Virus record (IMG/VR): IMGVR_UViG_3300010151_000258
Span: 1-20,616 of that record
Source of the DNA: a virus
Length of the DNA: 20,616 nucleotides
Strand: one strand, 5' to 3'
How positions within the stretch are numbered: the stretch's first letter is position 1; each line of letters opens with the position of its first letter. The translations under genes were made by a program, and so were the position numbers. The notes beneath the pieces are model-generated. The model saw only the letters and a program-made list of their open reading frames with translations, did not search any database and was not told the DNA's origin. Below are positions 85 to 20,616 of the stretch, in pieces.

Positions 85-90
85 TTATTA

Positions 91-687: not shown

Positions 688-699
688 GTAGTTATCCTC

Positions 700-1356: not shown

Positions 1357-1357
1357 C

Positions 1358-1858
1358 TTAGAGTCTCATTGCGGGTGTGAGTGTGTCTCCACCTGAAACA
1401 TCCATAATAAGGGAAGAGAGAGTATCCGGCATTAGTGCGGGTTCGTCTGCCCAAAAGAGAGGATCATGAGCGGCTTGAGGATGTAGTGTGCCGTATGATG
1501 CAATGTATTCGTTCTGATCATCGGGATCCACAACTTTAGCTTGTGAGAAATGACCCTTGATATTTCGTTTCCATTCGTTTCTACGTATAACACGGTAAAC
1601 GAATATAACTCCGTGTTCAATACCAGGAACGATAAATGATGTCCAGCCTACATCTGCATATTGTTCTTTCCATGCAGCAACCATTTCAGGAGTAATTTGA
1701 TTCTGCGCAAAGAGCTCGTCTCTCGCATCATCCATCTCCTTACGTAGTCTAGCTTCCTCTCTTTCCTGAGGACTCATCTTTGCTAGTTCATCATCTGTAA
1801 ATGTTGGTGGTTCAATCTGTGGTACTTCTGTTGTCTCTTCTAGTGGTATCTCTGACAT
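1358..1858 (-). CDS. Putative tail assembly chaperone (first of pair)
   Basis: A 166-aa protein. The N-terminal 50 residues are acidic and helical (EREEARLRKEMDDARDELF). Residues 71-100 carry a strand-turn-strand ending VIFVYRVIRRNEWKRNI, which matches in pattern the YTFRLLSPEDYRLI segment of the next gene, suggesting that the two are distant paralogues. Paired overlapping chaperone genes are the rule in long-tailed phages, often linked by a programmed frameshift. Here the two frames are separate, and no slippery heptamer is visible at the junction. The ATG at 1858 has an AGGAG SD about 11 nt upstream. The function is inferred from position between the tube-type genes and the unseen tape measure gene. 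Confidence 0.55.
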   Translation of the reverse strand: MSEIPLEETTEVPQIEPPTFTDDELAKMSPQEREEARLRKEMDDARDELFAQNQITPEMVAAWKEQYADVGWTSFIVPGIEHGVIFVYRVIRRNEWKRNIKGHFSQAKVVDPDDQNEYIASYGTLHPQAAHDPLFWADEPALMPDTLSSLIMDVSGGDTLTPAMRL

Positions 1859-1911
1859 TAAGTAATTCTCCTATCTATCTTGATGTGGTCACCAGCGTCC
1901 TCCCATTTCAT
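1858..1911 (-). CDS. Possible 17-codon mini-ORF filling the gap before the chaperone-like gene
   Basis: The ATG at 1911 opens a 17-residue frame (MKWEDAGDHIKIDRRIT) whose TAA overlaps the ATG of the next gene by one base (TAATG). The frame therefore fills the 54-nt gap almost exactly, in the same tight style as the other junctions. The SD is poor: the TAG stop and AGG of the preceding gene lie too close to the ATG. It may be a leader peptide that couples translation, a real small gene, or chance. Confidence 0.25.
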   Translation of the reverse strand: MKWEDAGDHIKIDRRIT

Positions 1912-1912
1912 C

Positions 1913-3298: not shown

Positions 3299-4855
3299 TT
3301 ACAACTCCTTAGCTCTAAAGAAATCGAATGGATTGTCCTTGAAGGATCTCGAAGGATCAGTTATAGTTCTATATCTAACTTCTGATTTTCTTTCATCTCT
3401 ACGTGTAGTTACTTCATCAACCTCACGTTGCTTTGCTGCTATCTCATTACTCAATGAAGTTTGAAGTGCGAATATATCATTTCTATTCTCAATGGTAAAA
3501 CCAATTCCAGCCATCTCTGCTTGTGCATCAGCTATTTTGTAGATCATCAAGTCCAATTGTACTTGTATCTCTATTACTTTATTAAGCTGTTGCTGCATAG
3601 CTGCAAGAGACGCGGATGTATCATTTATAGTACCATCAAGATTAGCAAGTAAGTGATCCTCACTGAATGTTGAACCATTGAATATACCTGCTGAGAATGG
3701 AGTGACTCTTGTATTCGCACCACCGGGTGAACCAGTAACCGGAGTCATCATCTCGATGTCTCTCGCTACGAACTGCATTACATTTTCTATGTATAGATCA
3801 TTGACACCATGAGTCTGTCCTTCATCTACTATCTCCACACCATAAAGTCGCATGACTGCTCCTTTGAATTGGTTGGGTAGTCCGGGTGCATTTCTATTGG
3901 GTACTTCATGAAAGTATGTAATTGTTATATCAAATGGGGGTAGTTGGTCGGGAACTACTGTAGTCATCAAGTCATCTGAACCTGATTCAAAATCATATAT
4001 ATCTGCTAGTTGACTAAGTGCATATGTGTCAAACACTGTCCACACCAATGTACCAGCTATAGTTCTGCCGCCTCTAGTATAGCTTCTGGCATACGTTCTA
4101 CCAAGTGTACGTACAGGATGCTTCTCTCTATGTGTGGAGTAGGATAGTGTAGTTATGTTACCGAGCTCTAGTACCTTGTCCCCTGTAGTAATAACAGGAA
4201 CAATATCGCAACCAGAGAACACAGTTACTTCTGGTTCTACTGCAGGCTTTGGTTCTGTTGTAGGTTCTGTTGTAGGTGCTGGAGTTCCGTTTGGCTGTCT
4301 TCCAAGACTCTGTTCAGCTAGTCCTTGTTCTACTGCTTGATTAAATGCTAATCCTTGTTCTTTTCTTCTTTGGGTTTGTGCGTCTAAACTGTCTCCTGCC
4401 GTTTTATCAAATAGTAATCCTGCTCTTTGTTGTAGTAAATCATTTTGCAATTCAGTGGCATCATTATCAATAGTTAAATTAAAGCTAGCTATTTCTAATT
4501 GAACTTCTTTTCTTCTTAGTTTTAGTGCATCTAACCTGCCTTGTGCCTGGTCATATTGAAATGAATCGGGTGGAAAGCCGTAATCTCGTTGCGTAATTGT
4601 TGTCTGAAGTCTTTGTATATCACTATTAATTTGTTCTATTTCTTTCTTACGTGTATTTAGTTCATTATCTATTGAAGAATTAAGCTGTGCTATTATTTTA
4701 GCAAGCTCGTCTCTTGCTTCATCTATCTGATCCTTAACAACAAATGCGCGATCTGATTCCCCAGTCGTATCTAATCTACGACGTAGGATTTCATCTTTAC
4801 GTATTTGCTCTTGGAGAGCTTCAGCTTGTTGTTGTAACGTTTGTCTATATGACAT
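3299..4855 (-). CDS. Coiled-coil protein with central tail-tube-type domain (paralogue 2)
   Basis: A 518-aa protein in four parts. Residues 5-90 are a Gln/Glu-rich coiled coil. Residues 158-186 are the segment shared almost identically, in DNA too, with the gene at the right window edge. Residues 188-210 are a Pro/Thr/Glu linker with TTEP repeats. Residues 213-372 are a clear tube-type domain: SYSTHREKHPVRTLG, then SYTRGGRTIAGTLVWTVFD, LPPFDITITYF and ENVMQFVARDIE, each with a counterpart in the tube protein. A second coiled coil spans about 415-490. No SD precedes the ATG; the leader is pyrimidine-rich (CCCCCTCCTAT). The frame upstream is open without a stop back to the tube gene's TAA. It is likely a minor tail-tube or baseplate-proximal ring protein. 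Expression by readthrough or re-initiation is a hypothesis only. Confidence 0.75.
   Translation of the reverse strand: MSYRQTLQQQAEALQEQIRKDEILRRRLDTTGESDRAFVVKDQIDEARDELAKIIAQLNSSIDNELNTRKKEIEQINSDIQRLQTTITQRDYGFPPDSFQYDQAQGRLDALKLRRKEVQLEIASFNLTIDNDATELQNDLLQQRAGLLFDKTAGDSLDAQTQRRKEQGLAFNQAVEQGLAEQSLGRQPNGTPAPTTEPTTEPKPAVEPEVTVFSGCDIVPVITTGDKVLELGNITTLSYSTHREKHPVRTLGRTYARSYTRGGRTIAGTLVWTVFDTYALSQLADIYDFESGSDDLMTTVVPDQLPPFDITITYFHEVPNRNAPGLPNQFKGAVMRLYGVEIVDEGQTHGVNDLYIENVMQFVARDIEMMTPVTGSPGGANTRVTPFSAGIFNGSTFSEDHLLANLDGTINDTSASLAAMQQQLNKVIEIQVQLDLMIYKIADAQAEMAGIGFTIENRNDIFALQTSLSNEIAAKQREVDEVTTRRDERKSEVRYRTITDPSRSFKDNPFDFFRAKEL
4299..4386. repeat. Copy A of a near-identical 88-bp intragenic repeat
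   Basis: Matches 20527-20614 in the same orientation with only three mismatches (positions 4312, 4351 and 4358). On the minus strand it encodes residues 158-186 of the coiled-coil tube paralogue (DAQTQRRKEQG, then AFNQAVEQGLAEQSLGR). Similarity stops at about 4299 on the low side. On the other side it runs to within 2 nt of the window edge in copy B, so its full length cannot be seen. Confidence 0.9.
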
Positions 4856-4866
4856 ATAGGAGGGGG

Positions 4867-4894
4867 AAATGGGGGCTCCGAAGAACCCCCATTT
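4867..4894 (-). terminator. GC-rich hairpin with UUCG tetraloop between tube gene and paralogue 2
   Basis: On the minus strand AAATGGGGGTTC pairs with GAGCCCCCATTT (12 bp, one G-U) around a TTCG loop closed by C-G, a very stable tetraloop. It starts 3 nt after the tube gene's TAA. The U-tract is poor: ATTT lies inside the stem and is followed by CCCCC. It may be an attenuating terminator or a 3'-end stabiliser for tube mRNA. A role at the tube stop codon is also possible, because the frame beyond is open. Confidence 0.6.
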
Positions 4895-4897
4895 GGT

Positions 4898-5575
4898 TTA
4901 AGTTGTTGGTACGTTCTGTGCCGTATTAGTTCCTCTAGCATTCTCCAATGTCTTCCAGTCGATGATGGATCTTGCAACGAATGTCATCTGACTTTCAATT
5001 ACAATGTCATCAACTGAAACACCTGAACCTTGGTTCAAGAGTTCTACTCCCAGGATCTGCATGAACATTCTAGTTCCAAGTTCATTTTCTCCTGACAGTA
5101 CAATGTCGAATGGGGGCATCTGATCAACGTAGTTAACATTTCTTAAGTCCTTGTGGAACAATGTACCTTGCGGTCCAATCTGTCCACCAGCAGCTTCCAA
5201 CAATCCTGCTGCATCCTCTCTTGCTATATCACTGCCTCTTGATGCAGAGAATTCTCCAGGAGAAGCAACATCTGTGAATTTAGCAAAGTACTTGGCATGT
5301 CTAGGTTGATTCTTATCCGTTAGATTGCTTAGAGCAGATCTATCGAAAATCGTAAAGACAAGAGAGCCTGCGATACCTCTCTTACCTCTTGAGTATCCTC
5401 GTGGATCAACAGATCCCATCGTATAGATAGGAGCCTTCTCACGAGTCACTGAGTACGATATACCCATTAAGTTACCAATAGGGCGACCATCTAATACAGC
5501 TTGTATATCAGTTCCAGCGAAACTAGTATACGTAGATGTATAAGTGTTATCGAGTAAATCGGTGGCTTGCGCCAT
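4898..5575 (-). CDS. Tail tube protein
   Basis: A 225-aa protein. This size, and its place directly after the sheath gene, are typical of myovirus inner tail tube proteins, which stack as hexameric rings to form the channel for DNA. Motifs: GISYSVTREKAPIYTMG at 38-54, RGKRGIAGSLVFTIFD at 63-78, MPPFDIVLSG at 153-162 and QMTFVARSI at 196-204. All four blocks recur in the two larger downstream genes, which supports a shared fold. The ATG at 5575 has an extended purine SD (AAGGAAGGTGA). Strong hairpins lie on both sides (5595-5625 and 4867-4894), which would favour a discrete, abundant mRNA. Assignment rests on neighbourhood and length; I see no conflicting evidence. Confidence 0.85.
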   Translation of the reverse strand: MAQATDLLDNTYTSTYTSFAGTDIQAVLDGRPIGNLMGISYSVTREKAPIYTMGSVDPRGYSRGKRGIAGSLVFTIFDRSALSNLTDKNQPRHAKYFAKFTDVASPGEFSASRGSDIAREDAAGLLEAAGGQIGPQGTLFHKDLRNVNYVDQMPPFDIVLSGENELGTRMFMQILGVELLNQGSGVSVDDIVIESQMTFVARSIIDWKTLENARGTNTAQNVPTT

Positions 5576-5594
5576 TGATAGTCACCTTCCTTGG

Positions 5595-5625
5595 AAAAGG
5601 GGTAGGTAGTTAGCCTACCCCTTTT
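5595..5625 (-). terminator. Perfect 12-bp hairpin after the sheath gene
   Basis: On the minus strand AAAAGGGGTAGG pairs perfectly with CCTACCCCTTTT around a 7-nt loop (CTAACTA). The A-tract, GC-rich core and T-tract order is that of an intrinsic terminator, though the T-run is only four long and is followed by CC. It starts 2 nt after the sheath TAA and ends before the tube SD. It probably terminates some transcripts or protects the 3' end of sheath mRNA. Confidence 0.65.
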
Positions 5626-5627
5626 AT

Positions 5628-8420: not shown

Positions 8421-8441
8421 GGTTAATCGCCTCCTTGGTAA

Positions 8442-8460
8442 AAGGAATATCTTATTCCTT
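8442..8460 (-). promoter_or_regulatory. Perfect 8-bp hairpin in the sheath leader
   Basis: AAGGAATA pairs with TATTCCTT around a 3-nt loop, just upstream of the sheath SD in a 67-nt gap. The stem is AT-rich, and the T-run after it is only four bases and is interrupted. It could be an RNA processing site, a 5' stabiliser or a weak terminator for the upstream neck genes. No convincing -35/-10 promoter is visible in the gap. Confidence 0.4.
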
Positions 8461-8487
8461 GTACGACTATGTTAAGAGGATTTAGCA

Positions 8488-9258
8488 TTAAGTTGTCTCC
8501 TTAATCCTTTCCTTTACACGAGTTGCCCAGTCAGGATAACTATCTTGACTGCGCAGTTCTTCTAATGCAATTCTTATACTTTTGAGTTTCTCTACCAATT
8601 CGTAAGTAACTTCTTCGCTCATAATATAATACTGCACGGACCTTGCTATGATACCATTCCTGAATTTAAGCAGGAACTCATCTCGTAGTCTTCTTTCAAA
8701 GTACCATCTTGATACACCGTACTTCTTCAGAGTTCCTACATGAAGCGTCATAGTTTTCATAAATTCAGTAACTAGTCTTTCAGCTTCAAAGTTCGTTTTT
8801 GCAAAACAATCAAACTGTATAATACTTTCAAACCTTTGACCGTATGTTACTATTTCTGTTTCTGGTACTTCTAAACCCAACGCAACTTCTTCGTTGTTGG
8901 GAATACTTGTTTCCCTCAGTCTCGGTGTCAGTTCTTTACGTGCACCGAACTTGTTACCACTTGTTGACCCAGGACTCATTCTAATAACTGACCATGCTAT
9001 GGTCTTGTCTGGCATCTGAGGAGCGTCTTCTGTATCTCTAATTAATAGAGAATCAACAAGGTAGTCGGGATATGCTGGTGTAAAAACAATGTCAGAATGT
9101 TCCAAATGTAAAATCTGATATATAAGGATCATTGCATCTTCTATAGTGGCAGGTTTCTCCGATCTCCTCATTAAAGTTGGGTGTTCCCAATCTTCAAAAT
9201 TACTAGGATCGATATCATCTATAGTTGCCGATCTATATTCTTTTGGTGTATCTGCCAT
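8488..9258 (-). CDS. Putative tail terminator / tail completion protein
   Basis: A 256-aa protein between the neck genes and the sheath, the usual position of the tail terminator that caps the tail and joins it to the head. The core, residues 120-215 (VTYGQRFESIIQFDCFAKTN, then a helix EAERLVTEFMKTM, then WYFERRLRDEFLLKF and SVQYYIMSEEVTYEL), follows the strand-helix-strand order of such proteins: a strand with a polar 'FDC' centre, a long amphipathic helix and late antiparallel strands. Its ATG overlaps the TAA of the preceding gene by one base (TAATG), with an AGGT SD upstream, indicating coupled translation. No single catalytic motif is expected. Assignment rests on synteny and fold pattern, and a neck protein of another type is possible. 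Confidence 0.65.
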   Translation of the reverse strand: MADTPKEYRSATIDDIDPSNFEDWEHPTLMRRSEKPATIEDAMILIYQILHLEHSDIVFTPAYPDYLVDSLLIRDTEDAPQMPDKTIAWSVIRMSPGSTSGNKFGARKELTPRLRETSIPNNEEVALGLEVPETEIVTYGQRFESIIQFDCFAKTNFEAERLVTEFMKTMTLHVGTLKKYGVSRWYFERRLRDEFLLKFRNGIIARSVQYYIMSEEVTYELVEKLKSIRIALEELRSQDSYPDWATRVKERIKETT

Positions 9259-9830
9259 TATTGTCTACCTATAACTTCTATTCCACATATACATGCGTAG
9301 AATTCAATTCTTCCACCATCACTTCTGAACGGTTCTACTAGATTTATATTCCATGCTTGTAGATATGGTGGTTCTATTCCTGTGGGTTCATCTACTCCTT
9401 CGTATGCTATTTCATATATTAAGTCAGACTGTTTAGGAGCTACATTGTGTGCAAGATAAAACTGTCTATATACCACTGGAATATTACCTAAGGGTGTCTC
9501 TTGTTCTACTTTGAACCTAGACGCTGTTACTGTCAATGCTCTTTTATTAGTTCTTACTAGTTCATCTTCGAACGGATAGGACTGACCTCCCACTCCTTCA
9601 CCAGTAGGTTTGTAATAACTTCCCTTCCCGGTTGTTCTATTATAGCTATCTGAATTCTGCGATGTATCGAATCTTCTATATACTACCCAGTAACCGTGAC
9701 CTTGATTATCCTGGTCACCATTTACAAAGCAATCGAATTCATCGCGGAGATCGATTCCTCTATCTCGGGATCCAAATCTATCAACCTTGATTGTATCTTC
9801 TGTTTCTTTTCTAAATAGATCTAATGCCAT
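9258..9830 (-). CDS. Putative head-tail stopper / neck protein
   Basis: About 190 aa, rich in beta strands and aromatic residues (GYWVVYRRFDTS, FKVEQETPLGNIPVVYRQFY, YLQAWNINLVEPF), with GRIEFYACICGIEVIGRQ at the C-terminus. A small, mostly beta protein directly after the adaptor gene fits the head-tail stopper that closes the portal channel after DNA packaging. Two starts are possible: TTG at 9836, overlapping the upstream TGA, and ATG at 9830, two bases after that stop. I use the ATG because neither has a good SD and coupling serves both. The stop overlaps the next ATG. Function is inferred from position. Two Cys residues (ACICG) near the end could bind a metal or be incidental. Confidence 0.62.
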   Translation of the reverse strand: MALDLFRKETEDTIKVDRFGSRDRGIDLRDEFDCFVNGDQDNQGHGYWVVYRRFDTSQNSDSYNRTTGKGSYYKPTGEGVGGQSYPFEDELVRTNKRALTVTASRFKVEQETPLGNIPVVYRQFYLAHNVAPKQSDLIYEIAYEGVDEPTGIEPPYLQAWNINLVEPFRSDGGRIEFYACICGIEVIGRQ

Positions 9831-9832
9831 GA

Positions 9833-11197
9833 TCAACTCGGATAGTTATTTACGGTGTACGTATATTCTCCCCAATGTAATCTTACTGGTAATTGCATTC
9901 CACCTAACCACTTCTCGATAAGTTGTCTTCTACCATTACTATCTCTTATTGAAGCGGGGCCCTCACATATGTAAGTGTCTCCCATATCCAATAATCTTGA
10001 GTGTTGTGGGAATCCATATTTGCCTCTTGTAGCAACCAATGGTTTAACTCTTCTTCCACCAGTTCTAATAAGACCCATTGCTTCTTTTGCGCATGCTTGT
10101 AGATGTTCAATTGTATCATCAAGTAATGCTTTAACTGATGTTACGTCTGCATCTATAGAAAGATCACCTAAGTGTTTCTCTCCAGCCTTCAATGCCATAG
10201 CTGAAAATTCCTGACGTATTACATCTACTGCTGTCTGACATGTCACGTAGTCAGTTACATAGTAGGGAACCGGACTATAGACTGTGCCACCATTAAATAC
10301 AGTGATCTGTCTTGAGTGCTGTAATGCTACTCTACGAATTGTATCGTCAGGAATGTGTTGAACGAAAGGACCAGCAAACAATCTCACAAGTACATCAGTG
10401 GTATACATTGGATAAAACTCGGTCATGAATGACATAGTTTCATCTGCTAGAGTTGGAGCAAAGCCCGAAGCTGTTGCACCAGCTTTCAATGTTACTGTAT
10501 ACTCTGCATTGTTTGCAAAGAATGTATCTGTTCTAACTGCACCTGTAGGTAATGCACAATGTATAGCGTTTCCAGATGCGGTAATAAAGTAACCAGAAGG
10601 ACCACTAATATGATCACCAGTTAAGGTGTATCCAAGTACATCTACTCCCTCTATACCAAAATAGCCCGAAAGGTCAGCAAAGGTACCTGAAGGTGAACCA
10701 TTTAATACTATTTCTAATGATCTTACATTAGTAGTTATTTTCTCGTCGCCATGTTCTATGATGCCACTAGCGTTTGTTAATAGTGTATTCCATAGAGTAG
10801 GAGTTCTCGTTACTGTTGCAGCAGCAGTTCCTGCTGCCCATTCAATTTCTGTCCCTGCTACTAGTTCAGTGTTCGATGTTGTAAAGTGCCAAACAAATGG
10901 ATCAAGAAGATAATTTCCATCGCTATCTTTAATTCCCGGAGTAGGTACTGTTACCCTATATCTTGTTAGGATCTGTAGATTAGACTCTGGAACCCAAACT
11001 ACTTGAGTCTGATTACCAGAAGTACTAATAACACCTTCAGGTACATCTAACGATCCATCATCCTCAACAATTGTGAGGGTAAGGGGATTGATAGATGCCT
11101 TGTCAATTTTCTCGTTAAACTCTACAAGTATATTAGAGTTAACAGGAACAAGGTGTCCACTAGGAGAATGATCTATAACATGGAAAGGTGTTGCCAC
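9833..11197 (-). CDS. Ig-like (Big_5) domain fused to head-tail adaptor-like domain
   Basis: A 454-aa protein. Residues 4-110 are a good bacterial Ig-like SbsA/Big_5 domain: an opening H.PSG..VPVNSNILVEF.E.ID..S motif, a central VVWVPESNLQ.LTRYRVTVP and a closing WHFTTSN. Residues 113-265 look like a second, more divergent beta domain (NVRSLEIVLNGSPSG through AEYTVTLKAGATASG). The last 190 residues start with TTDVLVRLFAGPF and IPDDTIRRVALQHS, followed by helices. This helical pattern is like the connector/adaptor proteins that dock below the portal, and the gene sits where an adaptor should. The start is GTG (11197-11195), whose G is also the last base of the upstream TAG. Ig-like domains on phage particles often face outward. 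The fusion is inferred from sequence pattern, not from structure. Confidence 0.65.
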   Translation of the reverse strand: MATPFHVIDHSPSGHLVPVNSNILVEFNEKIDKASINPLTLTIVEDDGSLDVPEGVISTSGNQTQVVWVPESNLQILTRYRVTVPTPGIKDSDGNYLLDPFVWHFTTSNTELVAGTEIEWAAGTAAATVTRTPTLWNTLLTNASGIIEHGDEKITTNVRSLEIVLNGSPSGTFADLSGYFGIEGVDVLGYTLTGDHISGPSGYFITASGNAIHCALPTGAVRTDTFFANNAEYTVTLKAGATASGFAPTLADETMSFMTEFYPMYTTDVLVRLFAGPFVQHIPDDTIRRVALQHSRQITVFNGGTVYSPVPYYVTDYVTCQTAVDVIRQEFSAMALKAGEKHLGDLSIDADVTSVKALLDDTIEHLQACAKEAMGLIRTGGRRVKPLVATRGKYGFPQHSRLLDMGDTYICEGPASIRDSNGRRQLIEKWLGGMQLPVRLHWGEYTYTVNNYPS

Positions 11198-11274
11198 TAT
11201 TTACGGGACCCCTTTTTCTTTTTGATGTCTTTGATGGTTGCTTTACGTATCTTCTGCTTATGTACTGATGCCAT
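11197..11274 (-). CDS. Lys-rich 25-aa mini-ORF between capsid-region and neck genes
   Basis: The ATG directly follows the TAA of the 212-aa gene in the same frame (TAAATG), and the TAG shares one base with the GTG of the next gene, so the 25-codon frame fills the gap exactly. The peptide has nine Lys and two Arg (MASVHKQKIRKATIKD, then a KKKK run and GSRK). No SD of its own is visible, so it would depend on coupled re-initiation or on readthrough of the preceding TAA. It could be a DNA-binding head peptide, a C-terminal extension of the upstream protein, or a translational coupling device. Confidence 0.5.
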   Translation of the reverse strand: MASVHKQKIRKATIKDIKKKKGSRK

Positions 11275-11913
11275 TTATTGCACCGATGTTAGAACTTCGT
11301 CAGCCTCGTTTGTGAAATCTGCATTTACTCCTTTTTCGACACGCGCATGCTTTTCAATTGCATCTATAAGCTTATCTTTTTCTACTGGAGTAAGCTCTCT
11401 ACCTTCTTTCTCTGAAATACCAATTACCTCTAATGCTTGCACGATTGCATCTACTACAGCGACCCTAGGCTTCAATGCCTTGTTCTGTCCAGTAGTTTCC
11501 AACGCGTATAGAACCTTCAATGGAATTTTTGCTACTCGTGGAGTATTAAGGATTTGCTTTACGTAAGCGAGTACTTGCTTTTCAGTAGTTTCTCTTGCGT
11601 GCAGGAATTGATACTGTGGACTATCAGATAGATCGAGTTGATATTCTTCTATCATCATAGGCTCTGGAAGTGACGGATCATATACTTCTATTTGACCTGC
11701 ACCTATCAGAGTCTGTAACTTTTGTTTCTGTATATCTTCTAACTTAGTCTTATCGAGTATAGCAGTAGTTTTGTTGACTAGAGCATTTAGTTCCAACCCT
11801 ATTGCAGGATTTAGAAGCATCTGTGCTTTCTTCAAACGTATGTGTACTTGATTTGACTGATCTACTTCTGCTTCTTCTACTTCTACTGTCTTAGTACTAG
11901 TACCTCTAGCCAT
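11275..11913 (-). CDS. Protein of unknown function following the capsid gene
   Basis: A 212-aa, mostly helical, charged protein with no recognised family. The N-terminal 25 residues are polar (TSTKTVEVEEAEVDQSNQ). A short segment HIRLKKAQMLLNPAIGLELN follows, then helices with many Lys and Glu. The middle contains a short acidic turn region (DPSLPEPMMIEEYQLDL). It lies between the major capsid gene and the neck genes, where phages often keep an inner-head, capsid-associated or connector protein. The ATG at 11913 has a GAGG SD 5 nt upstream, just after a strong hairpin. The TAA is followed at once by an in-frame ATG of a 25-codon basic ORF, so a longer readthrough form is conceivable. Function unknown. 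Confidence 0.8.
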   Translation of the reverse strand: MARGTSTKTVEVEEAEVDQSNQVHIRLKKAQMLLNPAIGLELNALVNKTTAILDKTKLEDIQKQKLQTLIGAGQIEVYDPSLPEPMMIEEYQLDLSDSPQYQFLHARETTEKQVLAYVKQILNTPRVAKIPLKVLYALETTGQNKALKPRVAVVDAIVQALEVIGISEKEGRELTPVEKDKLIDAIEKHARVEKGVNADFTNEADEVLTSVQ

Positions 11914-11924
11914 ATTGTCCTCAC

Positions 11925-11961
11925 AGTAGCGGGGCTAGCTTTATTGACTAGCCCCACTACT
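11925..11961 (-). promoter_or_regulatory. 14-bp hairpin after the major capsid gene
   Basis: On the minus strand AGTAGTGGGGCTAG pairs with CTAGCCCCGCTACT (14 bp, one G-U) around a 9-nt loop. It lies a few bases after the capsid stop. No T-run follows (GTGAGG comes next, serving as the SD for the 212-aa gene), so it is not a standard intrinsic terminator. It would suit a 3' stabiliser of capsid mRNA or an RNase processing site. Confidence 0.6.
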
Positions 11962-11967
11962 ATTTGT

Positions 11968-13281
11968 TTATATAAAGTCAGTTGACGCCAATGCTGCCAG
12001 CGTAACGGAGTTAGTGTTATCGAATACGTAGTTTCTGTCAAGAATTACGTTCTTAGCAAGTGCTACGCCCTTGCCTTGCTCGATAGGCATAAATCCGTAT
12101 CTTTCACGGAGTTTCAGTCCGTGCATATCTGCGAGTGGTTTGTCGAACTCTTCGATATTCAGTGACTCTCTATTAATCAGAACACCTGTTGCGCTAGCAT
12201 CTACCATTGCGATAGCTGTAGAAGGAAGACCTGCTGCTGCAGCGAGGTTTCCGCCAGTAGCATCATAAGCCATCCAAGGTGTAACGATCATTGTCAGAGG
12301 TGAAGGAAGTCCCTTAGGTGGGATGTTATGTGTATTACCCAATGGGTTCAGAGTATTCAAGAATGCGTTAGCACCATTTCTACCCTGTACGTTTGTTGGA
12401 TCTAGGTTTTTATTATATTCGCCAGTTGCAGTAGTACGCTGTCCCATTCCGTTGAATTCAGTAGGCCAACCGCCACCTGCTGCACCTGCTGGAATTCTGT
12501 TAGAAGAAAGAACTTCTCCTGACATAACGATTTCTCTGATCTCGGGATCCGTAAGGAACATAGTCCAAGCTAGAGGATGTGTAATCCAGTGTGAAGGAGA
12601 GAAGCCGCGAGTTACCAAGTATGCATAAAGCTGGAATACATCATTCAGCGTCATGCTACCATTCTGGTCACCAGCAACGTTTCTACCAGTGCATGAACCT
12701 TCGATTGATGTCTGACCTGTGTCGTTATCAAAGACAACGATACCCATCTCATCAAGAAGCTTCAAGCCCTTCAGCTCTTTGTGTCTCGCGAAAGCACGAC
12801 CTGCTGCTCTCAACCAAAGACCAATAACATCAAATTGAGTGTCCTCAATCATCTCGTCGGTAAAGTGAATCTGTATACCAACTTTGTCAACATTTGTTGC
12901 TATGATAGAACCCTCACCCATGTCTGGGAAGGCTTCAGGATATTCGGATCCTTCGGGAATGTCAGCGACAGTCATAGCACCGATGGAACCAATCTGTACT
13001 TGTCTACCTCTGTCAAGTTCCATGCTTTGGAAAATGTTATTTACCACAACCGCAGCAGGTTCAAGAGCTTCGCGTACAATAGTTGTTACAACCGTAGGGA
13101 TGAATCTATTAACTTCACCTGTAGTAAGAGCATCCTTCAAGTTCATTGTTACAAACTTGTCGTTATCCTCGTCATAGGCAACACCATTGTTCACAAAGGC
13201 TGAGTGTAGATCTTCTATGCGCTGTAGATCCGATGGGTCCATACTGCTCCCATCGGGCAGCTTTAAGTCTCTAATTCTCAA
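11968..13281 (-). CDS. Major capsid protein (HK97 fold)
   Basis: A 437-aa protein. Position after the protease/scaffold, size and sequence pattern point to the HK97-fold major capsid protein. An N-arm (residues 1-60) leads to a helix and strand (PTVVTTIVREALEPAAVVVN), an extended loop (RGRQVQIGSIGAMTVADIPEGSE region), and then the backbone-helix region (IHFTDEMIEDTQFDVIG, then WLRAAGRAFARHKE). The closing part (ESLNIEEFDKPLADMHGLKL, then RERYGFMPIEQGKGVALA) is typical of capsid proteins, where the last strand follows an R-YG-like segment. The start is TTG at 13281-13279 with an AAGGAGG SD 10 nt upstream. Hairpins lie on both sides of the gene, consistent with a highly abundant product. Proteolytic trimming of the N-arm by the nearby protease is possible, but no site is identified. 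Confidence 0.93.
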   Translation of the reverse strand: MRIRDLKLPDGSSMDPSDLQRIEDLHSAFVNNGVAYDEDNDKFVTMNLKDALTTGEVNRFIPTVVTTIVREALEPAAVVVNNIFQSMELDRGRQVQIGSIGAMTVADIPEGSEYPEAFPDMGEGSIIATNVDKVGIQIHFTDEMIEDTQFDVIGLWLRAAGRAFARHKELKGLKLLDEMGIVVFDNDTGQTSIEGSCTGRNVAGDQNGSMTLNDVFQLYAYLVTRGFSPSHWITHPLAWTMFLTDPEIREIVMSGEVLSSNRIPAGAAGGGWPTEFNGMGQRTTATGEYNKNLDPTNVQGRNGANAFLNTLNPLGNTHNIPPKGLPSPLTMIVTPWMAYDATGGNLAAAAGLPSTAIAMVDASATGVLINRESLNIEEFDKPLADMHGLKLRERYGFMPIEQGKGVALAKNVILDRNYVFDNTNSVTLAALASTDFI

Positions 13282-13301
13282 GGTTAAACAGCCTCCTTAG
13301 T

Positions 13302-13336
13302 CGGATGGTGCTAGGTTAGTCCCCAGCACCAATCCG
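13302..13336 (-). promoter_or_regulatory. Bulged hairpin in the capsid leader
   Basis: On the minus strand TGGTGCT pairs with AGCACCA and, across one bulged T, CGGA pairs with TCCG. It is placed after the decoration-gene stop and just before the capsid SD. No T-run follows, so transcription probably continues. It may stabilise the 5' end of capsid mRNA or be a processing point. Confidence 0.5.
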
Positions 13337-13343
13337 TGTTTAT

Positions 13344-14474
13344 TTAAGCTACATCGACCTGGATTCTTGCGGAACCGATAGCACCGCTTTGTACCATGTC
13401 TTTGATGTTCTTTGCAGAAGAACCAAGACTCAAACCTACGAGTGCGTCCTCTGCGAAATTATAAATGTAAGCAGGAATACCATTTGTTTCTGTACCCTGA
13501 AGTCCAGAACCAGGATAGGTATCTACAGCCTGCAGTTGATCTTTCGGAAATCTTGCTTCTGTGAATAGAAGTCTACCCACAGTCTGATTTGTGATCGATG
13601 CAGAAGCTGCTGAACCGTGAGGTACAAACTTACCGTATGCATCGGATGTCAAAATCTTACCGGCACGCCCATCATAAATGTTAGCAGTACTATCAAAGTA
13701 AAAGAAGCCGTGCTTCTTGTAAACCGCTTCGTAACCATCTTCTGTTGAAGCAGAAGGATCACTTGTAACAGTTGCTGCTGCGAAATTAGTAAGCGTCTGT
13801 GGTGTAGTATCGCCAAAATCAGCATATGGAAGATCGATCAATCCATCTGCAAGGATACCGTACTGGCTAGCCCATAGATTATAGTTCAAACTCTTACCAC
13901 GAATATCCTGCATTACGTCCATGAAGGCTACGCCAGCAGGCATATTAATTGGAGTATCAATGAAGTCTGCTGCAGTTGCGAGTGTATTGCTGGCATCTGG
14001 AAGTACTGTACCTGCAGTTACATCGTCTGCACTGTATTCATATCTAACTGCTGCTCCACCGTTTGCTGGAATCAAAAGTCCTGCTGCTGACTCGTGATAA
14101 CCCCAGAAACTTGTATCGATGTTAAGTGCTGTATATGCTGCTCCAGCTACTGTCTCATCATCAAAAACAGGAATGTTACCTGATGCTTCGATATCTGGAA
14201 TACCACCAGAGATACCTGTTTCTGCTGTTGCTGTAGTCTGATTTGTAATCAAACTAACAATTGTACCTTTTGTAATTACTACCCAGTCTCCGGTCTCAGT
14301 ATCCTGCCACTGGACAGGAAGAGCTTTCCATGGATAGAAGGCACCAGCCGGACGCATACCACCCTGAGCAGATTGCTCTAGCTCTCTACGGAGTGGGGAT
14401 GTGTTATACTTAGAAGGGTTACTTCTAATAGGCTGTCTGCGAACACTTTCATTTAAGAATACCAAATCTGACAA
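13344..14474 (-). CDS. Putative capsid decoration or head structural protein
   Basis: A 376-aa protein between the protease/scaffold and the major capsid gene. The N-terminal region contains AFYPWKALPVQWQDTETGDW then VVITKGTIVSL, a pattern like decoration proteins that carry a 'K/PGTIV' strand. The remainder is rich in Ala, Gly, Thr and Ser with many beta strands, typical of an extracellular virion component, and ends with ARIQVDVA. It starts at TTG (14474-14472) with an AGGAGA SD 10 nt upstream. It is probably made in large amounts, given its neighbours. It could instead be a second, minor capsid-type protein or a head fibre base. No enzyme motif is visible. Confidence 0.55.
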   Translation of the reverse strand: MSDLVFLNESVRRQPIRSNPSKYNTSPLRRELEQSAQGGMRPAGAFYPWKALPVQWQDTETGDWVVITKGTIVSLITNQTTATAETGISGGIPDIEASGNIPVFDDETVAGAAYTALNIDTSFWGYHESAAGLLIPANGGAAVRYEYSADDVTAGTVLPDASNTLATAADFIDTPINMPAGVAFMDVMQDIRGKSLNYNLWASQYGILADGLIDLPYADFGDTTPQTLTNFAAATVTSDPSASTEDGYEAVYKKHGFFYFDSTANIYDGRAGKILTSDAYGKFVPHGSAASASITNQTVGRLLFTEARFPKDQLQAVDTYPGSGLQGTETNGIPAYIYNFAEDALVGLSLGSSAKNIKDMVQSGAIGSARIQVDVA

Positions 14475-14498
14475 GTTAATTCACTCTCCTAGTTAAGT

Positions 14499-16091
14499 CT
14501 ATTTATTAGACTTTTTAAGAATTATTCTCTTGATCATATCTGAACCGCTTTCTTCCTTTGTTGAATCAACAATTTTTTCATCAGGATCATTATCCAGAAC
14601 TGGATTGTCTGTTCCCTGTGTTGGTTCGTCAGGCTTCTGATATGTTCCGAACTTTGTTTCAGCGCCCAATGCGTCGTACGCACTAGCGATCTGATGTCCG
14701 TCCATATCCGAAATTACCTTGGAGATAGCTTCCGATCTGTTATCAAAGAACTTCTCTGCTGTGACAAGGTCAGGTAGTTTACCTGCGCTCATCTGTAGAT
14801 CCACTAGAAGGGTAGCCCTTAGACGTTGAACTAATTGATAGAGTCCTGTGTTCTCATCAACCATTGCCTTCATAAGATCGCTCTCGTCTGGTTGCTCATC
14901 TAATTGAGTCTTGAGTGCATCAACCTGAGTCTGTAGCTTGCTTATGGTATCGGACTTCTCTTCGATGTCTTTCTGTACATCTTCTAGTTTTGTTTTAACT
15001 GCTTCGTGTTCCAGTACCTTTTCATCACTAAGTAGTTCTGTAAGATCTGCAATCTTCTTTTCAAGGTCTGCAATCTTTTCTGTAAATGAAAGATCCTGGT
15101 TGTCATCTGCAGCTTCGAATGATGCTTTCTTCATTAGCACAACTGAAGTAAGCTTGGCTTTGGATCCTCTACCATTGTAGTTATCCAAAATTTCTATTGC
15201 AGCATTGATGTGTTCCATGTCAGGAAGAGGAAACGTACTCTTCTTATCTGTATGTGGTCCACAAAATGCATCGTCACCTTCGTAGAACTTATCTCCAAGT
15301 TTTTCTTTCATTGCTTCTGCAACATGAGCTGCAAGCTTGAAGTCGTGTGCTGTCCACGCTGTAACGTCTTTCGGTTCCTCTTCTTTCTCGTCTTCTATTT
15401 CTACTTTGATGTGTGCTTCTTTAGCTTCACCAGATAGTTCAATAGAATCCCGTATAAGGATTACTTCTTCGCTATCTGTACTATCGTCGTCTCCGACATG
15501 CACTACACCAGCAAAGTGATCTTCGGACTGATCTGCTGGAGTATTTACAAATGATACTTCGCTGTATTTTCTCTGACCTACATTCCATACACAAACTTGA
15601 TCATCATAAGTCTTACCTTTTTCATGATCGCACTTGTCTTCTTTGCTCGATACATTAGAGTCACATATAGAGCATCTAATATCTTTACTTGAGCACGATG
15701 TAGATACAGTTAAGTACGTACCGTCAAGTACTTTCTTAATTGCATCGGGGTCGGTAATGAGCGCATCTAGAACAACTACACCAGTTGGACGATTATCTTT
15801 ATCGTCTCCATCTTGAAGCTGGAGATCTTCTCGTCTAGCATCGTAGACCCTGCCTAGAGGATCTTCCTGATCATTGTGAAATGTCACAACTGGCTTACCG
15901 AATGGTTCAAACCAAGACTTCAGGCTATTATCGGTAGCTTCGCCGTCTACATATCGAAACTTGTTCTCATTAACGTAACCCAGATGTGTTGCAGCCAGAC
16001 GAACATTTAATGCCTTAATATCAGAAGCATCTCTGGTTTTCAAAGCATCGGTCATCTGAACTTTCACGGGATTAACATTTACAAATTTCAA
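14499..16091 (-). CDS. Prohead maturation protease fused to coiled-coil scaffold
   Basis: About 530 aa from the chosen TTG at 16091-16089, which has an AGAGGTGG SD 7 nt upstream and overlaps the kinase TGA. An earlier TTG at 16124 lacks an SD. Residues 1-200 resemble a phage prohead protease: H72 (VVTFHND) and S130/S132 (LTVSTSCSS) are candidate catalytic residues, about the spacing seen in herpes-like prohead proteases, followed by a block ending SEVSFVNTPAD. Between them is a Cys/His cluster (C140, C143, C154, H156, C167), likely a zinc ribbon. Residues 289-325 carry the FPLPD..H...A motif of a small phage-associated domain. Residues 336-400 are a coiled coil of scaffold type. Together the protein would shape the prohead and then cleave head proteins. 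The catalytic residues are inferred. Confidence 0.72.
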   Translation of the reverse strand: MKFVNVNPVKVQMTDALKTRDASDIKALNVRLAATHLGYVNENKFRYVDGEATDNSLKSWFEPFGKPVVTFHNDQEDPLGRVYDARREDLQLQDGDDKDNRPTGVVVLDALITDPDAIKKVLDGTYLTVSTSCSSKDIRCSICDSNVSSKEDKCDHEKGKTYDDQVCVWNVGQRKYSEVSFVNTPADQSEDHFAGVVHVGDDDSTDSEEVILIRDSIELSGEAKEAHIKVEIEDEKEEEPKDVTAWTAHDFKLAAHVAEAMKEKLGDKFYEGDDAFCGPHTDKKSTFPLPDMEHINAAIEILDNYNGRGSKAKLTSVVLMKKASFEAADDNQDLSFTEKIADLEKKIADLTELLSDEKVLEHEAVKTKLEDVQKDIEEKSDTISKLQTQVDALKTQLDEQPDESDLMKAMVDENTGLYQLVQRLRATLLVDLQMSAGKLPDLVTAEKFFDNRSEAISKVISDMDGHQIASAYDALGAETKFGTYQKPDEPTQGTDNPVLDNDPDEKIVDSTKEESGSDMIKRIILKKSNK

Positions 16092-17011
16092 TCTTCTGCC
16101 ACCTCTGTGACTATGTGATTCCAACTTTCAATGTCTAGTGTATTGCCAGCGGGAAGTGACATCATTCTCTCACAGCCTTTAACGGCTGCTTCGAGACCTG
16201 TTCTCAAGTCCCAACCTTCTAATGCACCTACTGCAAGAACTGCAGTCATGACATCTCCTGCTCCAACCACTGTTTTAGGTTTACGTTGTCCTGGAAATAC
16301 TAATCCAAAAGGATGCTTCTTATCATCATAATGAATAGGTTCTTTTCCATTTGTTACTACAACTTGACCTGGGGTCCAGTCTGCTAACTTAGTAATAGCA
16401 TCCAAAGTATTATCAGTTGATGTTAAAGCTAGAGCTTCTGCAGAATTGGGTTTAATAATTATTTCATCCGTCTTGTATGCATCAAAGAACTCTTTCTTCG
16501 GATCTGCAATCCAAGTTCGGAAACGACCTTTGAGGGTCTGTAGTATTGACTCAGTTATTGATCCCTTTGCGTAGTCGCTAGTTATTAACACTTCGCAACT
16601 ATCAGGTATATCTTCAATCATTTCTAACACATGTTTATCATATTTCCTAAATGCATTAAAATGAGGATCTAAGTCAATTCTGGTTATGGTTTCATCTCCA
16701 CACATGTATCTATCTTTCTTACAGTCGAGATCAATCCATCCTAATGTTGTACCATCTATTAGGTATTTCTTTAAGGGAGCATGTGCTCCACTGTCATCTA
16801 ATATGTTAGTTCCAGTCATACCAATTATAATAGTTGGTATTCCCATTCGAGCTAGACACATTGCTACATTGCCTGCTCCTCCAGGACTAGAGTGATCAAA
16901 GATAGGGTTAACTATACATAAACCATCGTGCTCTGGAGACTTCTTTGTTGTTGCTTGATAATATCTGTCCAACATAATGTCGCCGAAGACAACGACTTTA
17001 GGACTTACCAT
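16088..17011 (-). CDS. PfkB-family sugar kinase, HldE/RfaE kinase-domain-like
   Basis: A 307-aa protein of ribokinase/PfkB type, close in pattern to the kinase half of HldE (D-glycero-beta-D-manno-heptose 7-phosphate kinase). Residues 8-18 (VFGDIMLDRYY) and 25-27 (SPE) form the substrate end, and PGGAGNVAMCLARMG at 43-57 is the first PfkB signature. SDYAKG is at 145-150, ADPK at 169-172 and KPNSAEA at 187-193. VVGAGDVMTAVLAVGALEG at 248-266 is the second signature, with D253 as predicted catalytic base. All key positions seem intact, so it is probably active. No nucleotidyltransferase domain is fused. It lies between portal and protease genes and shares its stop with the next start, so it is co-expressed. 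It may act on a sugar phosphate for glycan or nucleotide-sugar synthesis; the substrate is unproven. Confidence 0.85.
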   Translation of the reverse strand: MVSPKVVVFGDIMLDRYYQATTKKSPEHDGLCIVNPIFDHSSPGGAGNVAMCLARMGIPTIIIGMTGTNILDDSGAHAPLKKYLIDGTTLGWIDLDCKKDRYMCGDETITRIDLDPHFNAFRKYDKHVLEMIEDIPDSCEVLITSDYAKGSITESILQTLKGRFRTWIADPKKEFFDAYKTDEIIIKPNSAEALALTSTDNTLDAITKLADWTPGQVVVTNGKEPIHYDDKKHPFGLVFPGQRKPKTVVGAGDVMTAVLAVGALEGWDLRTGLEAAVKGCERMMSLPAGNTLDIESWNHIVTEVAED

Positions 17012-17082
17012 ATTTCTATAACTCCATATTATCCTTTACTTTATACTCACTACATAGCCCCATAACTTTTTTTGGGGTACAA
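17012..17082 (-). other. 71-nt gap between portal and kinase genes, weak promoter-like elements
   Basis: The gap is AT-rich. On the minus strand it contains CCCC and GGGG blocks that could form a short weak hairpin around an A-run, then TATAAAG and GATAAT boxes before the kinase ATG, and a GGAG SD 10 nt upstream of the start. No good -35 partner is present, so a promoter is only possible. It is the largest gap in the window. Confidence 0.25.
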
Positions 17083-19206
17083 TTAATTTGCAGTGCGACC
17101 AGGAACTGTCACCAAACAGTTACAATTAGGGTGCGAACTTCCTGGTGGAATGTCCAAGGAAGTTAAGTTATCAACGACTGGAAATGTTCTTGCTCCTTTG
17201 TTACATCCAGGACATGCAGGAATCAGAAGTTCTTGTTGTCCTTGGGCTTGGAACATTCTTGCTCTACCAAAATTGTAATCTCTCATCAATGAAGTAGAAA
17301 GATTCATTTTAATTCTATGGTGATATGTGTCCATGATTGCAGACACAGTTGATGCATCCAAAGAATCTGTAATATTTTTTTGATTGATCTTACGCGCAAC
17401 TGTTCTCGCTAACTTTTGTAATGACTTCTTAGCTTGTGTAATTGTATCCTCTACATCACTTTGCATCAATGAAGCTTGATCATTATCTATGATAACATCA
17501 TCAGTGAGTACACTATGTGCACCTTGAATATATGCATTAGTAAGTATAGGGGCGAGTACACCAATAGAGTCATCTACGAATTGTTTCTGAACTCCATCTA
17601 TCCACACGTCATCCATCTTATCATCTTCACTACCAAGTATAGTAATGAAATCTGTTCTCATAGTTTGCCAGTGAGAATCAATAATGTTTGACGAATGACT
17701 CATGCCCAATTCGTTCAGTACCGGAGTATCAAATGTATCTTGTAGTTGTAGTTCATCATTCAGATCCCCATCCTGAGGTATACGAGGAGATGCGAGTTGG
17801 GTCCCGTGTTGATTAGTGGGAATGTCCTTACTCTGTGCACTTCCATTTCCACCTACTGTACCTTTCAACATAAGTGTAGGCATAGTAACGTTCTTCAGAT
17901 ATGTATCTGCTTCTTGTGATCCAGTGAACGGTTCTTTACCAACTGCAAGTCTTGCTTCTTCATGTGTGATCATGCCACCTTGATACAGAAGCATATTATG
18001 ATTCTCGCTCTTTATCTTCTCATCTATATCAATTGAAGGTATGAACATTGTTACTTTATTAGTAGAGTTGTATTCGTCGTACGCGAACCCACCTTCAGAA
18101 AGGAGTTCTTCCAGTATGAATTCATTAACGAACATCTTCAGTACATCTTGAAACTCTTCTACTGTGTCGCGAGTATCTTGGGACATAGTAAGTGATGTAC
18201 CTCGTGAGGAACTATCACCCTCACCCCAATCTACAGATGAAAGATGTAACCCTCCACGTACACGCTTCATAAAGTAATCAAGATACGTCGAAGCATCAAT
18301 TGCTTCACCCTCAGCACCTATAACTTTTATCTCATGTCTCTCGGGAGTAACTAGAGCACCATTGAATGGCATGTTATCTACAGCATACTGTAATTCTTCT
18401 AGCTCTTCAGGTTCAGCTCTATCCTCGGTATCTCCAACAACATATTGATATAGTGGGACTGCGTGCTGATATACAAGTCTCTCGATATGTTCTTCCATAC
18501 CTCTCAGCGCACGTATGTCATCCAGCACAGATATAACGTACGGAGTACCAGTACTTAGTCCTACCTTTCTGTCTTTATGGAAGTGAATAACATCTTCAGG
18601 CTTGAACTTCGGCCATTGACTTCTAGGATAGCCAGGTACAACCTGTCGATACATTCTTACTTTGCCGTGCTCGTCTTTATCTATTTCAATAGTAGTTGCG
18701 CACATAGGATAGTATGCTGCTACTGGTTCTAGTTCTTTATCGTCGAATGTTCTACGATTCATTCCACCAGATGATTCCTTCTTACGTACCTTTACTATAT
18801 ATGCATTGGAATAGGTTACTAGTTGATCAACAAGGTCCTTAATTAGTTGTTCAGTAGGTATACCACTTACCATTGCTATTTGCTTGAATCTCTGCTTGAT
18901 ATAAGCTACCGCATTAGGATTCTGTCCCACCCACTCAAACTTATTCTTCAATATGAGTGTACATAGTTTCTCGACAGATCTGCGGAACAACGGTTCTCTG
19001 TCTATAGCATTAGCTACATCGTTAAGATTATAGTCAGGGCCCTTGAATGAGTTTCTATATTTTGTTCCATTATATGCTAGACCTGGAGAGTTAGCACGCA
19101 CAACGGGTCTCTTCTTCCGGACAGTCTTAGGGACTTCCTTATGAGAAGGCACATCCATTATAGCTATGCTATCTTTAGTATTGTCGTCAAAGTCAAATGC
19201 TGCCAT
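17083..19206 (-). CDS. Portal protein with MuF-like C-terminal region
   Basis: A 707-aa protein. Residues 50-450 have the pattern of dodecameric phage portals: FRRSVEKLCTLILKNKFEWV, then LVDQLVTYSNAYIVKVRKK, then PEDVIHFHKDRKVGLSTGTPYVISVLDDIRALRGMEEHI (split here as helix and loop), and a tail of DTVEEFQDVLKMFVNEF. Portals form the DNA entry channel and the base for the terminase and neck. The C-terminal 110 residues carry an R-rich helix (SLMRDYNFGRARMF), then a C..C pair (C665, C668) and PPGSSHPNCNC (H692, C695, C697), a pattern seen at the end of MuF/SPP1-gp7-type minor head proteins. It appears to be a natural portal-MuF fusion. It begins 2 nt after the TAA of the preceding gene. Confidence 0.85.
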   Translation of the reverse strand: MAAFDFDDNTKDSIAIMDVPSHKEVPKTVRKKRPVVRANSPGLAYNGTKYRNSFKGPDYNLNDVANAIDREPLFRRSVEKLCTLILKNKFEWVGQNPNAVAYIKQRFKQIAMVSGIPTEQLIKDLVDQLVTYSNAYIVKVRKKESSGGMNRRTFDDKELEPVAAYYPMCATTIEIDKDEHGKVRMYRQVVPGYPRSQWPKFKPEDVIHFHKDRKVGLSTGTPYVISVLDDIRALRGMEEHIERLVYQHAVPLYQYVVGDTEDRAEPEELEELQYAVDNMPFNGALVTPERHEIKVIGAEGEAIDASTYLDYFMKRVRGGLHLSSVDWGEGDSSSRGTSLTMSQDTRDTVEEFQDVLKMFVNEFILEELLSEGGFAYDEYNSTNKVTMFIPSIDIDEKIKSENHNMLLYQGGMITHEEARLAVGKEPFTGSQEADTYLKNVTMPTLMLKGTVGGNGSAQSKDIPTNQHGTQLASPRIPQDGDLNDELQLQDTFDTPVLNELGMSHSSNIIDSHWQTMRTDFITILGSEDDKMDDVWIDGVQKQFVDDSIGVLAPILTNAYIQGAHSVLTDDVIIDNDQASLMQSDVEDTITQAKKSLQKLARTVARKINQKNITDSLDASTVSAIMDTYHHRIKMNLSTSLMRDYNFGRARMFQAQGQQELLIPACPGCNKGARTFPVVDNLTSLDIPPGSSHPNCNCLVTVPGRTAN

Positions 19207-19208
19207 TA

Positions 19209-20616
19209 TTACCCCAGTCGCGTTAATGTATCATTTATTTCAAATAACAGTTCGTCCGATATGACCTGAGTACAATCAGCTAGTGTTTCGACAGCACGTA
19301 TCTGATTATTCACGTCATCTATTATTGCATTGTTTCTCTCTTCATCTGATAGTAATCTATCATCATCTCTACTTATAAAATCTGGTATGTTATCCAGATT
19401 CTCTTCTATCCCATCTCCATCAAGACCAAACTCTTCTGCAAGGAAACCACCAAGTTCATCTCTCGAAGGAAACAATGAATCGATCCCTGATCTTCCTGCC
19501 GGATGATTCACACTAGTTATATCATTAAGAGGATTGGGACTGGCAGCTATTGCTTCATCTGTAAGGTTAATGCAGAGGATTCCTTTATCTAATCCTGAAA
19601 TTACTTTATCTATAGTGTGTCTGAAGAATCGTAAGTTCTGTAGTACTTCTACTTTTCTGAGATAGCATCCTGCTTGACCTATAATAGGAACGCCCTTGTT
19701 AATAGCTATTCTAGACTTAACGGCATTCAATGCTCTGTTTATGTTTTTAGCTCTATTCTTAAGATCTCCTGTTCTCTCAGCCTGTCCTTCTACTGTAAGA
19801 CTATCTTCAATTTCAGCATCCGTTTCATCTCGTTCTCTTTTAAGTTCCTTTAACTCTTTATCTGCTTCGTCAAGAGAAGAGCAGTTGTATTTCATTCCTA
19901 TGCTTTCTTTTATATTGTTCTTCCAGTCAAGTATATAGGAATCAAGTTTAGCGAATATACCAGTGATAGGATGTGTTATCGTTTTAAGTATAAGATCAAT
20001 AAGTGCATTGAAGGGCCAGCATCTTGCGAAGACACTATCTCTACTCTTACCAATTAACTCAAATACTTCTTCTCTCAGATATTGTTGTAGTATATCTAGT
20101 GTAGTAATAACTGCACCAATCACAGCTAACATTATAGAGCCCAGTATATCAACAGAACCTTTAAGGTGCGTATCAATATCCTTCTGCAGGAAGTTGATAA
20201 GTAGGTCTATTACACTTCTCATCTGATGGAGTATACCAATATTCTTCTGTATTCTGTAATCTTTAGTAAGTCTTTGTATCTTATCTAGTCCACCAATAGC
20301 TGCAAGGTTACGTATAAGACAACACAGTACAACTGGATTCTTTGTCCATGAACGAAGTATTCTCTCAGCCTGTAACATGAATCCTTCAATAGCAGGTCTT
20401 ACTGCTGCACTATAAGCATTCCATGACTTAGGTACTTCTCTAGGAGGACCAGCAGTATGCGAGTTTGTATTAGATTGCGCAATGCGTCTTGCAGGTTCAG
20501 TAGCTGCTCTAGCTTCTAGGGTCTTCCTTCCAAGACTCTCTTCAGCTAGTCCTTGTTCTACTGCTTGATTAAATGCTACTCCTTGATCTTTTCTTCTTTG
20601 GGTTTGTGCGTCTACT
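19209..20616 (-). CDS. Helical virion-type protein, N-terminus beyond the right edge
   Basis: The frame ends in TAA at 19211-19209 and stays open to the window edge, giving at least 468 residues; an internal ATG at 20378 is therefore not the start. The first visible residues (DAQTQRRKDQG, AFNQAVEQGLAEESLGR) duplicate a segment of the coiled-coil tube paralogue. Next come a variable linker (TEPARRIAQSN...), a largely helical region with a hydrophobic stretch (SIMLAVIGAVITTLDIL), a second one around FNALIDLILKTITHPITGIF, a coiled coil (EADKELKELKRERDETDAEI) and an Asp-rich C-terminus. It lies upstream of the portal, where terminase or a head gene would be expected, but no terminase motif is visible. 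It could be a virion protein with membrane-active or channel properties, or an internal head protein; this is not established. Confidence 0.72.
   Translation of the reverse strand, partial: VDAQTQRRKDQGVAFNQAVEQGLAEESLGRKTLEARAATEPARRIAQSNTNSHTAGPPREVPKSWNAYSAAVRPAIEGFMLQAERILRSWTKNPVVLCCLIRNLAAIGGLDKIQRLTKDYRIQKNIGILHQMRSVIDLLINFLQKDIDTHLKGSVDILGSIMLAVIGAVITTLDILQQYLREEVFELIGKSRDSVFARCWPFNALIDLILKTITHPITGIFAKLDSYILDWKNNIKESIGMKYNCSSLDEADKELKELKRERDETDAEIEDSLTVEGQAERTGDLKNRAKNINRALNAVKSRIAINKGVPIIGQAGCYLRKVEVLQNLRFFRHTIDKVISGLDKGILCINLTDEAIAASPNPLNDITSVNHPAGRSGIDSLFPSRDELGGFLAEEFGLDGDGIEENLDNIPDFISRDDDRLLSDEERNNAIIDDVNNQIRAVETLADCTQVISDELLFEINDTLTRLG
20527..20614. repeat. Copy B of the near-identical 88-bp intragenic repeat
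   Basis: Direct repeat of 4299-4386 at 85/88 identity, with differences at 20540, 20579 and 20586. It encodes the first readable residues of the right-edge gene. The last two bases of the window differ from copy A, but the edge prevents me from telling whether the repeat stops here or continues with lower similarity. Confidence 0.9.

Follow-up and report, generated by a model that had tools for sequence, protein, structure and literature searches.

Rickettsia palindromic elements are a known case of sequences inserted, with the frame kept, into genes that are unrelated. In virulent E. coli phages, the median length of mosaics with more than 90% identity is 131 bp, and intragenic 100-bp pieces are often exchanged among phages (De Paepe et al., 2014, PMC3945230). 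The sharing of fragments between unrelated phage proteins is already known as well (Smug et al., 2023, PMC10684548). The locus described here joins the latter two phenomena, with one short piece found in two unrelated genes (copy A in a tail-tube-like gene, copy B in a pre-portal gene) and in two viruses. Judged from the sequence, this piece is a DNA stretch of ~90-120 letters that appears to have been copied recently between virion-protein genes that are unrelated, and between large phages that are relatives. It is a real, recent and very short mosaic, of a kind already known, and a fresh example of the acquisition of a protein piece by phages.

The window and related viruses

The window, that is, the whole stretch of DNA analysed, is a complete IMG/VR record of 20,616 bp, the right end of which stops at the repeat. 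It belongs to a large myovirus-type phage, here called virus X, and its genes, all on the minus strand, comprise pre-portal, portal, PfkB-like kinase, protease, capsid, sheath and tube genes together with tube paralogues (Table 1). Among named phages, Bacillus phage vB_BauM_KLEB27-3 and Moorella phage MTATph1 come closest, with a portal identity of ~30%. A further contig of X, G001 (IMGVR_UViG_3300037634_003240, 44,067 bp), is identical to window positions 1-18176 and holds copy A deep within it. The relative Y is represented by G002 (IMGVR_UViG_3300037634_003268, 37,548 bp), with 75-79% DNA identity to X in the main BLAST alignments, where copy B is found deep within the contig (21701-21788) with the same sequence as in the window. 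A third contig, G003 (IMGVR_UViG_3300010151_005235), also belongs to Y, with an identity of 99.98%. Virus Z is represented by IMGVR_UViG_3300009786_000143, covering 18.5 kb together with two contigs that are shorter and almost the same in sequence. X, Y and Z are roughly equidistant in portal, protease and capsid, and the phage group is known here from these three viruses only. No contig carrying virus X past position 20616 was found in the scans of viral contigs. The PfkB-family (sugar-kinase-like) gene, at 16088-17011 between the portal and protease genes, is kept in all three viruses.

Table 1. Window coordinates of the repeat, of the tract common to X and Y, and of the genes around them.
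Position	Strand	Feature	Basis or remark
3299..4855	-	Tail-tube paralogue with added N-terminal coiled-coil arm (~1-210) and added C-terminal part (after ~370)	Tube-gene matches; arm predicted helical
4299..4386	-	Copy A, ~residues 158-186 of the coiled-coil tube-like protein, before a Pro/Thr-rich linker	Same sequence inside G001
4358..4400	-	Copy A left edge with 14 adjoining bp	79% similarity to 4505-4547 within this gene (motif LDAxxxRRKE)
4505..4547	-	Internal coil repeat, upstream partner (GRLDALKLRRKE)	Similarity to 4358..4400
4898..5575	-	Tail tube gene, 225 aa	Reference neighbour for placing Y and Z
17083..19206	-	Portal gene, 707 aa	Adjoins the pre-portal gene
19209..20616	-	Pre-portal gene, 468 codons present, start lost at contig end	Open frame; helical protein; orthologues in Y and Z
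20494..20616	-	123-bp tract, 100% identical in X and Y, reaching the window edge	Maximal exact match; codon statistics
20527..20614	-	Copy B, residues DAQTQRRKDQGVAFNQAVEQGLAEESLG, pre-portal N-terminus	97% identical to 4299-4386; same sequence in Y contig G002

Comparison with described systems

A recent mosaic has been defined as a stretch of at least 100 bp with more than 90% identity, standing above its background, and the X/Y tract is of this kind (123 bp, 100% against 75-79%); copies A and B alone, with 88 bp, lie below the 100-bp limit (PMC3945230). Like the mosaics attributed in that study to relaxed homologous recombination, the tract is short, falls within 90-100% identity amid more diverged sequence, and has a size near the 131-bp median. 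Unlike them, copies A and B stand in two unrelated genes and not at matching positions, and the X/Y pair lies above the limit of 70% average identity set there for genome pairs. Domain mosaicism, defined by a fragment in two otherwise unrelated proteins, has in common with this locus that such a high-identity fragment is present, with protein identity (89%) above the 70% threshold for recent emergence and just below the 90% one, and with DNA identity of 97%. However, the fragment here comprises ~28 residues and no recognised domain, and it lies in a pre-portal and a tail-tube-like protein, whereas the published cases are receptor-binding proteins or endolysins (PMC10684548).

T4-type capsid-targeting and prohead protease propeptides offer a further parallel, in that virus Y carries a short, N-terminal and probably helical segment beside the portal gene. 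A capsid-targeting peptide is expected N-terminally on several head proteins; the segment, in contrast, has two carriers, is internal in one of them, was not found on other head proteins and is missing from the Z orthologue. As in the Rickettsia palindromic elements, an in-frame segment of ~30 residues stands in unrelated genes; unlike those elements, it has no palindrome and two copies only.

The repeated segment

It was found that copies A and B agree at 85 of 88 positions (97%), in the same reading frame and both on the minus strand, giving the peptide LDAQTQRRKEQG with 25 of 28 residues identical (89%). The longest exact direct repeat of the window, 38 bp, lies inside this repeat, and in randomised controls (n = 100; first-order Markov, dinucleotide-frequency) the longest direct repeat had a mean of 14 bp and a maximum of 19 bp; the repeat is far beyond chance. 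In BLASTP, the tail protein and the pre-portal protein match over the segment and a short low-complexity tail only. The same-frame repeat of 88 bp and 97% identity noticed in an earlier, sequence-only reading is thereby borne out, in two genes that share nothing else. Both copies are real, because each lies within an independent contig (A in G001, B in G002), and for the same reason neither hangs on the window edge. The assembly artefact which that reading had named as the first thing that could undo its claim is thus set aside, and the relatives do not carry the ordinarily diverged versions that it had named as the other. A self-comparison of 49 sequences of X and its relatives (830 kb, partly redundant) gave one other non-tandem repeat of at least 40 bp, and such repeats are rare in the X/Y/Z group. 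In this other repeat (48 bp, 85%), part of the tail tube gene (GIELLNGGSDVSVDDIVI) recurs in frame within a 67-aa open frame of Y (G002 1431-1478, in L014, and 37362-37409), the small frame being far from the tail genes.

The three differences between the copies, GAA/GAT (E/D), TTA/GTA (L/V) and CAG/GAG (Q/E), are all transversions, and the codon comparison confirmed the claim that all of them alter the residue. The accompanying statement that no silent change is present holds within the 88 bp (28 whole codons) and fails for the peptide as it had been quoted, since its terminal Arg, one base outside the 88 bp, differs silently (AGA in copy A, AGG in copy B). Over the segment codons the expected share of replacing changes is 0.74-0.77, and three of three replacing changes have P = 0.40-0.45. 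Because of this value, and because the next codon (AGA/AGG) is silent, the pattern is uninformative on selection, and the selection on residues that had been proposed from it is not upheld.

The pre-portal gene and the tract common to X and Y

The pre-portal protein gave no PHROG, Pfam or PDB match above the cut-off. Its orthologue in Y is complete, with 462 aa, and the Y gene starts MSEVDAQTQRRK..., as MSEVDAQTQRRKDQGVAFNQAVEQGLAEESLGRKTLEARAATEPARR in G002, where copy B is found. Because of this start, the segment forms the very N-terminal end of the pre-portal protein, and the far side of the repeat, which the sequence-only reading had described as cut off, can be seen from Y. In the window, copy B touches the contig end, and for X itself the sequence of this copy rests on one contig edge, which is the chief remaining doubt.

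The exact X/Y match next in length has only 38 bp, and the rest of the pre-portal gene is ~71% identical. At the borders, where a mosaic in the sense of PMC3945230 would show traces of homology, the identity is simply back to background at 20493, and the other side of the tract is lost at the contig end. Outside the tract, the codon is kept in only 56% of the residues conserved between X and Y in this gene. On this scale, ~41 successive codons with no silent change between the two viruses have a chance of ~10^-10, and identical codons at all 25 residues common to A and B one of ~10^-6, both figures being rough, with codons taken as independent. The alignment behind the 41-codon figure has one silent difference, in the last codon, at the base just past the exact match.

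In virus Z, the pre-portal gene has 62-65% protein identity and begins with MNSIDKVVQETQAARQDTAPARRI; a gap of 24 residues, flanked by aligned sequence left and right, falls at DAQTQRRKDQGVAFNQAVEQGLAE. The segment was not found in Z, either at the pre-portal place or elsewhere in its 18.5 kb. The contigs of X, Y and Z gave no further copy, whether diverged or not; no other carrier was found among the searched viral contigs, genomes, plasmids, named phages and distant relatives, and no relatives among the bacterial or archaeal genomes searched. A candidate third copy in Y (G002 4082-4132, 52 bp, 79%) was dismissed as a chance match, because the frame is glycosyltransferase-like and the peptide unrelated. 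A large protein of G001 gives a weak match to the segment (E = 0.08). The view that recent duplication or conversion explains the repeat better than old homology is strengthened by the 123 bp, the same in Y against ~71% for the rest of the gene, and by Z, which is without the segment.

The tail-tube paralogue

Only residues ~211-370 of the paralogue that carries copy A are homologous to the tube proteins of KLEB27-3 and MTATph1; compared with these, this second tube paralogue (3299-4855) is longer by ~210 residues at the N-terminus and by ~150 at the C-terminus. The shared segment lies within the added N-terminal 210 residues. In a single-sequence model, the arm is a long helix to residue 183, near the end of the segment and the start of the Pro/Thr-rich linker, and in the pre-portal model the segment is also helical; the models of both proteins are of low confidence (mean pLDDT 48 and 40). 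The internal likeness at the left edge of copy A, with its partner 147 bp upstream, exceeds 300 of 300 codon-shuffled controls. A weak plakin-type similarity in solved structures (E = 0.03-0.08) was discarded, having no Pfam support. The Y contig G002 ends ~40 bp past the stop codon of the tube gene, before the tail-tube paralogue, and none of the contigs obtained contains this paralogue of Y. The gene order of Z after the tube gene differs, and begins with a 70-aa coiled-coil-like frame.

Origin of the segment and alternative explanations

The segment is quite probably a short recombination patch, moved both from gene to gene and from phage to phage. A helix-coding piece of ~88 bp would have been copied, with its frame kept, between the part of the tail-tube-like gene that encodes the coiled-coil arm and the pre-portal gene at its 5' end, and, in a separate step, a patch of at least 123 bp over the pre-portal copy would have been exchanged recently between X and Y or, alternatively, would have entered X and Y from a third phage. 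The route may have been homologous recombination of the phage type, acting on short or imperfect homology during co-infection, and the segment may be tolerated as an extra helix with no dedicated function. The direction from the tail gene to the pre-portal gene is weakly suggested by the Z pre-portal gene, which is without the segment, and by the resemblance of the left edge of copy A, with the 14 bp beside it, to a stretch upstream in the same gene; this likeness could equally mark an entry point via short homology.

That the perfect-identity tract sits exactly at the contig end would also fit an edge chimera, in which the contig is X up to ~20494 and Y sequence thereafter, the assembler having crossed at a shared word, so that the true X start may differ. 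The X and Y contigs G001 and G002 come from one sample, 3300037634, and the Y contig G003, from another sample, starts at exactly the same base as the window end. However, such a stop at one base would be expected of a graph branch where X and Y truly share a stretch and differ beyond it, and the A/B repeat, whose longest identical run is 38 bases, would be too short to interrupt an assembly made with the usual word lengths. We consider the chimera unlikely, and gene-to-gene transfer stands even with a chimeric edge, because copy A of X and copy B of Y, both inside contigs, still match at 97%. The X/Y tract would otherwise reflect either recent movement or DNA held fixed. A functional DNA or RNA site (e.g., for packaging, replication or recombination) fixed in X and Y would agree with zero changes in 123 bp beside neighbours that differ by ~25%, and with a place between the terminase and portal genes. 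Yet neither this position nor any other part of the 18.5 kb of Z has it, and since Z is without the segment and the three viruses are about equidistant, an essential site fixed in the DNA is unlikely, and so is a function always needed by the pre-portal protein. Moreover, the three copy A changes all alter the protein, both copies are in one frame and strand, and there is neither a palindrome nor an unusual RNA fold (z = -1.5 and +0.6), which makes constraint on the DNA highly improbable. With no inverted repeats found, no strong fold and no further copies, an RNA or palindromic element and a mobile mini-element were rejected. A recombination hot spot at the segment, also raised in the sequence-only reading, is neither supported nor contradicted by what could be tested.

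The same reading had suggested a shared tag, that is, a head-targeting, assembly or protease-recognition peptide, which selection would have put on two virion proteins. Both carriers are indeed virion-type genes, the segment is N-terminal in Y and is predicted, with low confidence, to be helical in both settings, and its Leu-Ala-Glu resembles what we take to be the T4-type prohead protease site. Nevertheless, it occurs on two proteins only and is internal in the tail gene, the Z orthologue is without it, the contigs of X, Y and Z hold no further copy, diverged or otherwise, there is no reason for a head-entry signal on a tail-tube protein, and no excess of replacement changes is seen; the tag was not borne out, and its probability is very small indeed. 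It is also very unlikely that the segment is a helix-coding cassette moving repeatedly in frame among non-homologous virion genes and members of the group, as an interchangeable stalk or interaction piece in the assembly of head vertex to tail.

As a short recombination patch, the segment would be a sub-domain piece caught spreading between structural genes and between phages before silent sites diverged. Such spread is a step thought to build new phage proteins, and it is rarely seen so fresh and so small. From a practical point of view, an identical stretch in co-occurring phages can end contigs at one base.

Other observations

The tail tube gene, uninterrupted in X and Y, is interrupted twice in Z (L063:15608-16632 and L063:17092-18021) by stretches that carry LAGLIDADG-like open frames; these interruptions gave no match to Rfam intron models and may be introns or inteins. 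On the G001 contig of X, past the low end of the window, L003:15444-22226 encodes a protein of more than 2261 aa with an intein-like block containing a LAGLIDADG domain, followed by a region that, by eye, is PD-(D/E)xK nuclease-like.
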